From: an uncultured Saprospiraceae bacterium
GTDB taxonomy: Bacteria > Bacteroidota > Bacteroidia > Chitinophagales > Saprospiraceae
NCBI GenBank assembly: GCA_905480605.1
Contig: CAJQRD010000001.1
Span: 1-64,000, forward strand
Length of the DNA: 64,000 nucleotides
Direction: 5' to 3'
Below the pieces are notes generated by a model. It worked only from the letters and a program-made list of their open reading frames with translations, made no database searches and had not been told where the DNA came from. The translations under genes were made by a program, and so were the position numbers. How positions within the stretch are numbered: position 1 is the first letter of the stretch; every line of letters begins with the position of its first letter. Below are positions 1-7,700 of this stretch, one piece after another.

Positions 1-390
1 ACCAATTATTACGGAGTTAAAAGAATAGGATTAATTGAGAATTGGCTACATAGTTTCTCGAATATTAGAAATATATGTTGTCATCACGGTAGGCTATGGA
101 ATAGAAGACTTACAACAAGAATATCATTACCCAAAAAGACAAACAATCTGTTTGTAGAAAATAAACACATCCTTGATTACAAGATATATGCTGCCCTGTG
201 TTCGATGGAATATATATTAAGAATCATAAGCCCAAGTAGTACTATCAAATATCGGTTGATCGACCTTATAGATAGTCAACCTTTTTCTCAAGAAAAAGAA
301 ATGGGATTTCCTACAGATTGGAGAGAAGAAGAGTTTTGGAAAGATGATAGACAAACAACAGTAAAAGCTACAAAGACAGAAAAAGGATGA
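1..390 (+). CDS. Abi_2 (AbiD/AbiF) family abortive-infection HEPN protein, 5'-truncated by window edge
   Basis: Frame 1 is open from base 1 to the TGA at 388-390, so the first ATG at 205 is internal and the gene starts outside the window. The 129 visible residues carry two landmarks of the Abi_2 family: RNICCHH followed by RLWNR (residues 24-35), and MGFPTDW near the C-terminus. RNICCH fits the RX4H motif of HEPN ribonucleases, so the active site appears intact. Family members abort phage infection, presumably by RNA cleavage, and AbiF-type proteins are regarded as relatives of Cas13. The stop overlaps the mod start as ATGA, which indicates translational coupling. The N-terminal half, and any upstream non-coding RNA such as those reported for some AbiF loci, cannot be seen. 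Confidence 0.9.
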   Translation, partial: TNYYGVKRIGLIENWLHSFSNIRNICCHHGRLWNRRLTTRISLPKKTNNLFVENKHILDYKIYAALCSMEYILRIISPSSTIKYRLIDLIDSQPFSQEKEMGFPTDWREEEFWKDDRQTTVKATKTEKG

Positions 391-2249
391 CCAACTTATA
401 CAACCATATAAAAGACCTACTATCACAAAACGAAAGCTACTGCAAGGACGGTAAGTTTTTCAAAAATGTAATAGTAGAGGCAGCCTTGCAACTCAATCCA
501 GATTTGCTTAAACTCATCATATCAGATGATAAAGCAAAAGCTCACTTCTTTCAAGAAGTCGAAGGTGTGTTGATATTCGACAAAGTTAAATTCCAGAAAT
601 TCGTCAGTAACAAACAATTTCTACCAGATAGCTTCACAGCATATAAGAACAAGATAGGTCTCACGGCAAATGGCGAATACCTCACAGAGAGCAAAGAAGT
701 TGTACTAGATTTTCCGTACAAGGATTGTGTGCTGGAAGGAGGTCAAACTAAAGAAGACCAAAAGCGTCAAGAAATCTTTTGGAATGAGACTTTAGCTCCT
801 GATGAAATTGATAGATTATTAGATTCAAAGTTATTGACTAATTGGAAGAGATATGATAAGAAAGGTGACAGTATAGTGGATAAACTATCTATAAAGGATA
901 ACCTGGTTTTAAAAGGAAATAATCTATTAGCACTTCACTCACTTCTTAAAGTTTACCGAGGAAGGGTTAAGTTAATTTATATAGACCCACCATACAATAC
1001 AGGTAAAGATGATTTTGGCTATAATGATAGATTCAATCATAGTGCATGGATGACCTTCATTAAGAATCGATTAGAAGTTGCTAAGGAGCTTTTGCATTCT
1101 TCTGGAAGTATTTGGATTAATATCGACGATAATGAATCGCATTATTTAAAGGTCTTAGGTGATTCCGTATTTAAAAGAGAAAATTTTGTTCAAAATATCA
1201 TTTGGCAAAAAAAGTTCTCTCCTCAAAATGATGCTAGGTACTTTTCTGATAACCATGACCACATATTAGTATATGCCAAGAATAAAGCTTCTTGGAAATT
1301 GAACTTATTACCTCGATCTGAAGAAGCAATTAGTAGGTATAAAAATCCCGACAAAGATCCTAGAGGACCTTGGGTGTCAGGAGATTTAACTGTCAAAACA
1401 TATAATAAGGTTTACGACTATCCTATCACAACTCCTTCTGGAAATATAATTAACCCTCCTAAAGGAGTATGCTGGCGAGTAGCAGAAGGTAAGTTTTTTG
1501 ATTTAGTTAAAGACAATAGAGTTTGGTTTGGAAAAGAGGGCTCCAATGTCCCTAGATTAAAACGATTCCTCTCCGACGTTAAGGATGGAACAACACCAAT
1601 TTCCATTTGGCCTCACAGTGAAGTTGGCCACAACCAAGAGGCCAAACAACACATCAATGCGACTTTGGAATCTTCCTTGTTCTCCACACCAAAACCAGAG
1701 AGGTTATTAAATAGAATAATCCATATTGGATCATCAGAGGGTGATATAATTTTAGATTTCTTTGCTGGAAGTGGCACAACAGCTGCAGTTGCCCATAAGA
1801 TGAGCAGACAATTTATTACATGTGAGCAAATGGATTATGTAGAAGACGTGACTATTTCAAGACTAAAGAAAGTATTGGAAGCAGAGCAAGGAGGTGTGAG
1901 TAAAGCTTTAGACTGGAATGGAGGTGGTTCTTTTGTTTATGCAGAACTAGCCGAAAGTAATCAAGCATTTGTAAATGCCATTCAGGATGCAACAACCAAA
2001 GATCAATTATTAGAGATTTGGAGTACAATGAAAGAGACTGGATTTCTAAATTACAATATTGATCCATCTATTATAGATGACAGTATCTCAGAGTTTAAAG
2101 AACTCAATCTTGATGACCAGAAAAGATTCTTGATTTCGACGTTAGACAAAAACCAACTATATATCAACTACTCAGAACGAAACAATAAAGACTATGATAT
2201 AAAGAAGGAAGACATTAAGCTTAGCGAACAATTTTATAATTTGAAATAA
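387..2249 (+). CDS. mod: Type III restriction-modification DNA methyltransferase (Mod), N6-adenine type
   Basis: This 620-residue protein is the modification and target-recognition subunit of a type III R-M system. It methylates one strand of a short asymmetric site using S-adenosylmethionine. Motif IV, DPPYNTG, is at about residues 200-206, and the SAM-binding motif FAGSGTT is at about 459-465. This order is that of beta-class amino-methyltransferases. The stretch between them (roughly 240-430) should contain the target-recognition domain. The ATG at 387 follows an AAAAAGG ribosome-binding site and overlaps the stop of the upstream Abi gene. The 3' end overlaps the beta-flower gene by one base (TAATG). 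Length is normal for Mod and no truncation is seen. The recognition sequence cannot be predicted from sequence alone. Confidence 0.95.
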   Translation: MTNLYNHIKDLLSQNESYCKDGKFFKNVIVEAALQLNPDLLKLIISDDKAKAHFFQEVEGVLIFDKVKFQKFVSNKQFLPDSFTAYKNKIGLTANGEYLTESKEVVLDFPYKDCVLEGGQTKEDQKRQEIFWNETLAPDEIDRLLDSKLLTNWKRYDKKGDSIVDKLSIKDNLVLKGNNLLALHSLLKVYRGRVKLIYIDPPYNTGKDDFGYNDRFNHSAWMTFIKNRLEVAKELLHSSGSIWINIDDNESHYLKVLGDSVFKRENFVQNIIWQKKFSPQNDARYFSDNHDHILVYAKNKASWKLNLLPRSEEAISRYKNPDKDPRGPWVSGDLTVKTYNKVYDYPITTPSGNIINPPKGVCWRVAEGKFFDLVKDNRVWFGKEGSNVPRLKRFLSDVKDGTTPISIWPHSEVGHNQEAKQHINATLESSLFSTPKPERLLNRIIHIGSSEGDIILDFFAGSGTTAAVAHKMSRQFITCEQMDYVEDVTISRLKKVLEAEQGGVSKALDWNGGGSFVYAELAESNQAFVNAIQDATTKDQLLEIWSTMKETGFLNYNIDPSIIDDSISEFKELNLDDQKRFLISTLDKNQLYINYSERNNKDYDIKKEDIKLSEQFYNLK

Positions 2250-2614
2250 TGAAAGAACTTACTTTTTTTGACCAGAAAGGTACGCCTAAAGCATATAGTG
2301 AAGATAGGGAAACTATATACTCATTTTCAGGCACACCACTTGGCTATTTGACAGATACTAACCTTTATCACTTTGATGGTACTCACTTAGGTTGGTTTGA
2401 TAGTGGTTGGATTAGAGATCACAAGGGTAATTGTTTACTTTTTACCGATGAAGCAACTGGTGGTCCATATTTGCCATATAAAGGCTATCTGCCTTATAAG
2501 GGATATAAAAATTACTTACCCTATAAAGGATATAAAGCATATGCACCGTACAGGGCTGTTGATTCTTCATCATGGTCTGAAATTTCATTTGACCATTTCT
2601 TTAAGATTGACTAA
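2249..2614 (+). CDS. 4-fold beta-flower domain protein between mod and res
   Basis: A 121-residue protein with internal near-repeats: FFDQKGTP, YSFSGTPLGYL, YHFDGTHLGWF, then GWIRDHKGNC and TGGP. I recognise this as the 4-fold beta-flower family, whose unusual fold was described from predicted structures. After residue 74 comes a tandem Pro/Lys/Tyr tract (LPYKGY three times, with variants). Other members, as I recall them, have a similar repetitive Lys/Pro tail, and the segment ends in an SWSEISFDHFF motif. No enzymatic residues are evident. It begins on the last base of the mod stop and ends directly before the res GTG, so it is produced with the R-M subunits. A role as accessory or DNA/RNA-binding subunit is inference. 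Its function is unknown. Confidence 0.8.
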   Translation: MKELTFFDQKGTPKAYSEDRETIYSFSGTPLGYLTDTNLYHFDGTHLGWFDSGWIRDHKGNCLLFTDEATGGPYLPYKGYLPYKGYKNYLPYKGYKAYAPYRAVDSSSWSEISFDHFFKID

Positions 2615-5233: not shown

Positions 5234-7291
5234 ATGCAACATCTAAAACTCAATATAATACCATTCGAACATATAAATCCATATATCTCAATAAGTATAT
5301 GGAAAGAGGAAACTGATGGAGCATTTAAAATCCATAGATCATTATTTAGTAGAGACTTTTGGAGTGAGTTTTCTTTAGAGTTTTCAGACTACAAGCATTT
5401 GTATGTTTCGTTTTCAGTAGTCGATAGTGCGGATTATATAGAAAGAGTGAGCTTGAATGATAATTTTGGTTTAGCTAAATTCTATACAAATCTTAGAATT
5501 AAAGAATACTTCGAAGGACAAGATGTTATCGCTAGAATAAATTTTATCAAGAATGTTGAAGTATGGATAGCTTATGAAGCATTAAGCGATAATGATTATA
5601 CTTCCTATAAACGATATTCTTTTAAATACCAGTATAGAAGAGTCTCACCTGCAGCGGAGTTATTAGTATCGTTTGACGGTGTTTCAAAAGTATTCAGAAA
5701 GAGTCTCGCTGACATTGATGATATACCAGTAGAAAAATATTCAAGAGTTGTATACAAGACAAAAGTATTCAAATACGACAAGCTAGAAAACGAACAAAAA
5801 CAGAACCTTGAGTTAATATTTCCTTTACTGAATAATGAAATTAAACAGTTTCTCAAGATTCCATTTAAGCTAGGAAGACCAGAAAATAAGTATCCAAAGT
5901 ACTTCAAGTACATTAATGATTTTATTACTACATATCTCATCACTGATACTTTCAAAGAGATAATAGATATTCCAGACCAGGATTATTTATTGACATATCC
6001 AGAAGATCGAGTACTGAATACTGAGTACAAATCTAATTTACTTAGTTTCAATGGTGGTACTGACGTCAACCCTTACAATGGCATTAAGAATAAAGGTCCA
6101 AAAGAGACTTCACCACATAATAAGGTGATCTTCTTTATGATCTTCCACCAAGACGACACGAATGTTGCTAAGCAACTTAACAACGTCATGACCAATGGCA
6201 TAGGTCACTTTAGAGGATTGAAGAATTTTATTAAGCAGCCTTACACAACTGAGCATAACGGTAGTTTAAGGTTTTCTAATGTGGACACATTAATCACAGA
6301 TTTAAAGTCTTTCTTATTGGCAAAAGAGTTTGTAGAAGATGCTAGGTATGTAGCATTATATATTACACCAATTACAAAGTGGGATTCTAATGTTCAGCAC
6401 AGAGAAATATATTTTAAAGTCAAAGAACAATTATTGAAAAGTAAAATTACTTCTCAAGTTATGAGAAGGGAGACTATCATGGATGAGAACTTCAAATACT
6501 CTCTTCCTAATATTGCTGTTGCTCTTCTAGCCAAATTAGACGGTATCCCATGGAGATTAGATAGACGACCTTCAGATGAACTTATAATTGGCATAGGAGC
6601 CTTCTCACCTCAGAAAGCTAAGAGTAAATATTTAGGAAGTGCATTTTGCTTTACTAATGAAGGTAAGTTTCATGGTTTTGATTGCTTTACATCCAATGAA
6701 ACATCTTTACTTGCTCATTCTATCCAGACAGCAATACTACATTATCTTGAAGACCATCAACATGCAACTAGATTAATAATTCATTACTATAAAGACATAA
6801 GCCAGAATGAGATCAAGCCTATCACTGCCATGCTCAGAGAGCTTGGGTTAGATATTCCAGTAGTAGTAATTACCATTAATAAGACCGTGAGTGAAGACAT
6901 TGTAGGATTCGACATTAATAGTCCTCAGCTCATGCCATTCAGTGGTACTATCTTGAAAGTAGGTTATGTTGAATACTTGCTATTTAATAATGCAAGATAT
7001 ACCAGCTGGGGAAAAGAAGTAAAATCATCTATACCAGATAAAGTAAAAGACTATCATTTCCCAATAAAATTATCATTTTATTCTACAGAGGATGATTACT
7101 TCGAAGATCGGAAAGTTGTAGTTAAGTTGATTGATCAAGTATATCAGTTTAGTCGAATGTATTGGAAATCAGTATCACAACAAAACCTACCGGTTACAAT
7201 CAAATATCCTGAGATGGTAGCTCAAATATTTCCTCACTTTGAAGATCCAAAGATTCCTGATTTTGGAAAAACAAATTTATGGTTTTTATAA
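5234..7291 (+). CDS. Prokaryotic Argonaute (long type, degenerate PIWI catalytic site)
   Basis: A 685-residue protein with MID-PIWI architecture from about residue 270 to the end. The MID segment keeps the residues expected for 5'-phosphate guide binding: Y393/K395, Q408 and K434 in ALLAKLDGIPW. PIWI starts at about 449. Where active Argonautes have a catalytic Asp in an IGID-like strand, this one has IGIG (G455). Where they have HRDG it has HYYK (517-520). Target slicing is therefore very unlikely. The C-terminus NLWFL is the hydrophobic tail that packs into the PIWI/MID pocket in this family. The first 270 residues are diverged and should hold N/L1/PAZ-like parts, but I cannot delimit them. 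Inactive long Argonautes elsewhere act as guide-dependent sensors that trigger separate effectors. Here the only neighbours are the type III R-M genes, the beta-flower protein and the HEPN protein. Confidence 0.88.
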   Translation: MQHLKLNIIPFEHINPYISISIWKEETDGAFKIHRSLFSRDFWSEFSLEFSDYKHLYVSFSVVDSADYIERVSLNDNFGLAKFYTNLRIKEYFEGQDVIARINFIKNVEVWIAYEALSDNDYTSYKRYSFKYQYRRVSPAAELLVSFDGVSKVFRKSLADIDDIPVEKYSRVVYKTKVFKYDKLENEQKQNLELIFPLLNNEIKQFLKIPFKLGRPENKYPKYFKYINDFITTYLITDTFKEIIDIPDQDYLLTYPEDRVLNTEYKSNLLSFNGGTDVNPYNGIKNKGPKETSPHNKVIFFMIFHQDDTNVAKQLNNVMTNGIGHFRGLKNFIKQPYTTEHNGSLRFSNVDTLITDLKSFLLAKEFVEDARYVALYITPITKWDSNVQHREIYFKVKEQLLKSKITSQVMRRETIMDENFKYSLPNIAVALLAKLDGIPWRLDRRPSDELIIGIGAFSPQKAKSKYLGSAFCFTNEGKFHGFDCFTSNETSLLAHSIQTAILHYLEDHQHATRLIIHYYKDISQNEIKPITAMLRELGLDIPVVVITINKTVSEDIVGFDINSPQLMPFSGTILKVGYVEYLLFNNARYTSWGKEVKSSIPDKVKDYHFPIKLSFYSTEDDYFEDRKVVVKLIDQVYQFSRMYWKSVSQQNLPVTIKYPEMVAQIFPHFEDPKIPDFGKTNLWFL

Positions 7292-7298
7292 TTATTCT

Positions 7299-7700
7299 AT
7301 GACAGATATATTTAAAATAAAAGAACTCGCATCTACTCCAGTTAGAGTTTTGGTGTATGAATATTTGAACGAACATCAAAAAGCTTTATCATTAAAATAC
7401 ATTGAGTCAGACTTATATGACTTAGACCGTAGTTCAATATTTAGAACACTCAAGACCTTTGTAGACCATAAGATAGTCCATACTATTCATGATGGTTCAG
7501 GCTCAGTCAAATATGCATTATGTCAAGAAGGTTGTAATTGTGACCCTTCTGATTTACATTTTCATTTTTATTGTACTACGTGTGAAGCTACTTATTGTCT
7601 TCTTGATCTTCCAGTTCCTTCGGTCTCTTTACCCACTGGATTTGTTATTTCACAAGCCAATATGGTGCTGAGTGGATTGTGCAATAATTGTAATTCTTAA
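7299..7700 (+). CDS. Fur-family metalloregulator, probably Zur-like
   Basis: I start at the ATG at 7299 (MTDIFKIKEL, 133 residues). An in-frame start at 7239 would overlap the Argonaute gene by 53 bases and add a tail unlike the family. The N-terminal winged helix (to about residue 75) has the DRSSIFRTLKTF recognition-helix signature. The dimerisation half has HFHFYCTTC and a terminal CNNC, giving two CxxC pairs for a structural zinc and the HxH site common in Fur/Zur proteins. The metal is not certain, but downstream genes for a metal-type receptor and a CDF exporter favour zinc. The gene lies 7 nt after the Argonaute stop, so read-through from the defence operon is possible. A palindrome directly downstream may be its operator. 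Confidence 0.87.
   Translation: MTDIFKIKELASTPVRVLVYEYLNEHQKALSLKYIESDLYDLDRSSIFRTLKTFVDHKIVHTIHDGSGSVKYALCQEGCNCDPSDLHFHFYCTTCEATYCLLDLPVPSVSLPTGFVISQANMVLSGLCNNCNS

Follow-up and report, generated by a model that had tools for sequence, protein, structure and literature searches.

The 4-fold beta-flower fold has been described from predictions (Durairaj et al. 2023, PMC10584680), and the passages of that report consulted mention neither a triad-repeat tail nor a link to defence. The corresponding family, PF21784, is placed in clan CL0395 together with the Tubby C-terminal domain. The fold is without a known function, and a member residing in a restriction operon could yield the first one. 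Cargo linked to restriction genes has a precedent in PrrC, an anticodon nuclease associated with a type I restriction operon, which acts apart from DNA cleavage (PMC2610378). Operons of prokaryotic Argonautes (pAgos) have in turn been reported in association with type III restriction genes and HsdS (PMC6299218).

The stretch of DNA analysed here (hereafter the window) spans positions 1 to 64,000 of contig CAJQRD010000001.1, forward strand, and opens with the genes listed in Table 1, among which a beta-flower gene separates mod from res. The ORF lies exactly where the first-pass annotation had placed it, and belongs to the family then named: Pfam PF21784 ('Bflower') is matched at E=4e-35, the score of 121 bits exceeding the cut-off of 25, and the match is full-length, residues 5-118 being aligned to profile positions 2-116 of 116. 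No match was found to NCBIfam models, to the curated defence models of PADLOC, or to PHROGs. The gene is single copy in the source genome. AlphaFold2 (AF2), fed with an alignment of 8 sequences, returned a model with pLDDT 81 and pTM 0.74 (the single-sequence model reached only pLDDT 37), in which exactly eight short strands give way to coil, with a short helix at the C-terminal end. The predicted eight-stranded, four-hairpin shallow barrel fits the four-fold beta-flower as published (PMC10584680). The PDB contains no relative detectable by sequence, and Foldseek searches with the model against PDB and BFVD gave nothing at E<=0.001; these results and the 2023 report bear out the earlier remark that the fold is described only from predicted models. 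Tubby-like proteins of clan CL0395 form a 12-stranded barrel around a hydrophobic helix, and are characterised by binding of phosphoinositides or scrambling of phospholipids; the window model has 8 strands and no fold match in the PDB at that threshold. The window protein thus shares with the PF21784 family the extent of the match, the hairpin organization and the lack of a homologous solved structure, but differs in residing inside a restriction operon, and in being cytosolic; no signal peptide is seen.

Table 1. The beta-flower gene, its parts and its neighbours (positions are those of the window)
Feature	Position	Strand	Basis
Abi_2/AbiD-type abortive infection gene, 3' end	1..390	+	Pfam Abi_2 4e-8; PADLOC AbiD 2e-20
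mod, type III DNA methyltransferase, 620 aa	387..2249	+	PDLC03635, 593 bits
4-fold beta-flower protein, 121 aa, between mod and res	2249..2614	+	PF21784, 121 bits
Predicted barrel part, four hairpin repeats	2258..2443	+	AF2 strands 4-7, 13-17, 22-25, 30-35, 38-40, 46-51, 54-56, 62-65
Triad-repeat tail, residues 73-105 (PYL PYK GYL PYK GYK NYL PYK GYK AYA PYR AVD)	2465..2563	+	Sequence; AF2 coil
Predicted C-terminal helix, residues 114-118, within conserved WS..SFD.FF end	2588..2602	+	AF2
res, type III restriction helicase-nuclease, 867 aa	2615..5218	+	PDLC03651, 460 bits
Long prokaryotic Argonaute (pAgo), 685 aa	5234..7291	+	PDLC02385, 816 bits

Mod and Res, assigned by Pfam (TypeIII_RM_meth, N6_N4_Mtase, ResIII) and PADLOC, align with type III models along most of each protein. 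The window departs from type III mod-res operons because of the gene intervening between the two, and the additional presence of Abi_2 and pAgo genes. The Abi_2/AbiD gene, truncated at the edge of the contig, has 4 nt (ATGA) in common with the 5' end of mod. At its own 3' end mod has the stop TAA (2247-2249), which shares 1 nt with the beta-flower ATG, forming the sequence TAATG; the overlap with the mod stop reported at first, the operonic position and the tight coupling therefore stand. The beta-flower TAA (2612-2614) lies directly 5' of GTG 2615, which is in frame with res. That the gene abuts res, as also proposed at first, holds for this GTG, but not if res starts at ATG 2627. The latter is the likely start, because homologous Res proteins begin at the matching position, and would set a gap of 12 nt between beta-flower and res. 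The pAgo gene starts 15 nt 3' of res. As all genes are on the + strand and almost touch each other, a spacing which points to cotranscription, the Abi_2-mod-beta-flower-res-pAgo array looks like a single defence operon comprising five genes or more. At the 5' side, a small HTH regulator gene is found in the related loci L058, L059 and L062 where the window has the Abi_2/AbiD gene. At the 3' side, a Fur-like regulator ORF (window 7239-7700) starts within the 3' end of pAgo, a later ATG being probably the true start.

Res homologues were retrieved from two genome samples and from plasmids, and 15 mod-res loci, window included, were compared. The junction is devoid of genes in 10 of them, and ranges from a 4 nt overlap to an 11 nt gap; in one of these loci, L052, the res frame itself is broken in two. 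One inserted gene is found in the other five, and encodes the beta-flower protein in the window, a Bro-N protein in L058 and L048, a PDDEXK_3 protein in L045, and an unnamed 145-aa protein in L051. The Bro-N inserts are members of the PADLOC candidate-defence family PDC-S13, and the 145-aa protein has a weak match to a type II restriction enzyme, and no Pfam match. The Bro-N and PDDEXK_3 genes share the position of the beta-flower gene, but the proteins are unrelated to it. The Res tree groups the window (98/97) with L058 (Bro-N), L051 (145 aa), L059 and L060 (both empty), and pairs as sisters (100/99) L045 and L048, which carry different cargo. The simplest reading of these sequences is that the junction is an exchangeable insertion slot, the contents of which vary while Mod and Res persist. 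A swappable slot counsels against taking whatever gene occupies it for a restriction subunit, and makes the mod-res junction a place to seek new defence genes.

The first-pass annotation had envisaged precisely such a role, the beta-flower protein serving type III restriction as a subunit, as an inhibitor or as a modulator of specificity. In such a role it would bind Mod or Res and tune methylation or cleavage. Location between both subunit genes, and the one-base overlap with mod, do indicate that the protein is made together with them. Yet a type III subunit should be present in homologous systems, and the beta-flower gene is missing from all the other 14 mod-res loci, the junctions of which, close relatives included, are empty or host unrelated genes. 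Moreover, relatives of the protein reside away from any mod or res, and many are secreted or phage-borne. The proposal is thus unsupported, and we hold it to be distinctly unlikely.

We consider it reasonably probable, instead, that the beta-flower protein is an exchangeable accessory cargo, produced along with the restriction subunits, and external to the enzyme. Insertion at TAATG would have left the gene placed for translational coupling, because the same one-base stop/start joins mod to res in the cargo-free relative L059 (58% Res identity). Mod and Res would function without the beta-flower protein, mere co-expression linking the three. With less assurance, the protein could act alone, as a cytosolic accessory of the defence operon, and a defence role is possible. 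Being the single beta-flower/type III case known, the locus may represent a lineage-specific adaptation. The analogy with PrrC concerns the mode of working only, both genes being accessories linked to restriction subunits. The beta-flower protein differs in lacking nuclease features, and the analogy implies no relation in sequence or fold. A PrrC-like guard is kept inactive by its restriction enzyme until a phage anti-restriction factor frees it, a role that would be purely hypothetical here.

Beta-flower genes do not follow type III systems in the loci read. Members above the Pfam cut-off were found in 12 of 395 genomes sampled from the phylum and in 24 of 340 sampled from the class, and others were added by searching plasmids, phages and viral contigs; in viral sequences, protein-based scans retrieved no beta-flower relatives, but DNA-pattern searches did find some. 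The tail-bearing loci read were L022-L029, L034, L035, L063, L120-L122, L206, L208, L218, L219, L221, L230 and L231, and a dozen short tail-less members were read as well; some viral loci are short, which limits their flanks. Neither mod nor res adjoins the beta-flower gene in any of the ~20 other tail-bearing loci or in the tail-less members read. A neighbourhood survey of the family for type III genes, advised at first as a check, hence singles out the window, the neighbours elsewhere being unrelated, and its outcome speaks against the type III role. No relative of the gene was detected in 40 other genomes, sampled with emphasis on the genus, family and order. Since none of these related genomes hosts a relative, and no other beta-flower locus read adjoins mod or res, the gene is a sporadic acquisition. 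A candidate in Cytophaga (L021, 14 aa at 93%) was discarded as a chance antisense match within a TIR-domain gene. Short PF21784 proteins that are secreted (L123-L134) are widespread among genomes of the class, and are marked by a YDGSGRxIGRIDG-type repeat and devoid of the triad tail; matches cover only PF21784 positions 2-66, and these proteins likely form a separate subgroup.

Beta-flower genes flank housekeeping genes in L023 and L027-L029, and genes of phage type, such as lysozyme (L206), Rz lysis (L230) and integrase (L025) genes, in other loci. Further relatives reside on plasmids (among plasmid genes in L034) and in a Rhizobium phage, and N-terminal hydrophobic segments typical of secretion, lacking in the window protein, were recognized by eye in L024, L026-L029, L063, L120 and L221. 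Such neighbours, mobile carriers and signal peptides are compatible with the hypothesis that the gene is a neutral hitchhiker, a mobile element of the moron type with a non-defence function, as for example an envelope or phage-lysis task, tolerated because reading stays coupled. However, the frame and the triad pattern are intact, and repeated residues are encoded by differing synonymous codons, a sign of selection on the protein. In addition, three cytosolic members adjoin known defence systems: the Thoeris genes ThsA and ThsB lie beside the beta-flower gene in L022, and CBASS genes beside cytosolic relatives in L229/L231. The figure of three out of ~10 cytosolic members is suggestive, though a raw count from a small sample. 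On balance, neutral hitchhiking appears rather unlikely. As to the organization of these loci, a GIY-YIG nuclease-like gene (L022:7149-7855) overlaps the beta-flower gene by 1 base beside ThsA/ThsB, and in a provirus segment of ~4 kb (L231:332-4628) the beta-flower gene is accompanied by a CAP12/Pycsar TIR gene, as well as by a CBASS cyclase and Cap15.

An unusual trait of the protein is the tail. The LPYKGY repeats noticed at first are present, and are part of a longer triad repeat; a tail of ~11 triads is common to the family, LPYKGY being the form it takes in the window. AF2 predicts coil there, with medium confidence (block means 64-79). Three-residue periodicity was found in 17/17 members tested, each with p<=0.001 against composition-preserving shuffles, the tail regions having been chosen by eye ahead of the test. 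The middle residue of the triad is hydrophobic, Y being used in the window, and one of A, M, L, V, I or F in other members; identity between pairs of middle residues is 79% within a protein and 14% between proteins. In L218 and L219 the automatic register gives A, and F or Y at the adjacent position is about equally regular. The residue after the middle one is Lys or Arg in most members, and that before is often Pro or Gly. The repeat is thus unusual, since uniform inside each protein, and different from one protein to another. Nucleic-acid binding, at first suggested as a possibility for the LPYKGY repeats, was rejected as a trait that tails of the family share, because the L025 repeat (PPIPPV...) contains no Lys or Arg. 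Recent DNA slippage was also considered as the origin of the tail and is unlikely, since repeated Pro and Gly codons differ within the window tail; the triad pattern is therefore held by selection at the protein level, rather than reflecting a fresh duplication.

Three-residue periodicity combined with Pro suggests that the tail may fold as a polyproline-II rod. According to the model favoured here, in which the beta-flower protein is accessory cargo, the eight-stranded barrel would carry an extended rod, similar to polyproline II, on which one rib is hydrophobic and uniform and another is usually basic; this rod would bind either to the surface of a membrane or to a partner protein. A broader proposal is that cytosolic tail-bearing beta-flower proteins make up an unrecognised family of phage-defence accessories, found at restriction, Thoeris and CBASS loci and in prophages, the working part of which would be a polyproline-II-like rod made of some eleven triads, the hydrophobic rib of which is uniform in each protein. 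This extension is speculative, and we deem it rather improbable; if true, it would provide the first function for the beta-flower fold.

The 3' neighbour of res offers one more alternative, that the beta-flower protein is a partner of pAgo or Abi_2 rather than of Mod-Res, for example by serving an Argonaute without catalytic activity as its effector. Inactive long-B pAgos do employ separately encoded effectors (PMC10620215), and the pAgo start is close to the end of res. Still, related pAgo genes lie beside different genes, none of which encodes a beta-flower protein, and the beta-flower and ago genes are not adjacent in the window, which makes such a partnership very improbable. On inspection by eye, the PIWI domain of the window pAgo has Gly (IIGIGAF) in place of its first catalytic Asp, and because of this the enzyme may be nuclease-dead.

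Relatives of the pAgo gene reside directly 3' of type III restriction genes in the window, L058 and L083, and three intervening genes separate them in L062. They lie directly 3' of type I genes in L084, L085 and L091, and of a probable type II pair in L086 and L087; in L088 and L090 no restriction operon is found upstream of pAgo. The linkage of pAgo to restriction genes over types III, I and probably II extends the association described in PMC6299218. The interval between hsdR and pAgo is apparently a second cargo slot. A DUF1016/PDC-S02-type gene is located between type I hsdR and pAgo in two loci (L084:9935-11059 and L085:9777-10901), and RhuM is found between res and pAgo in L058.
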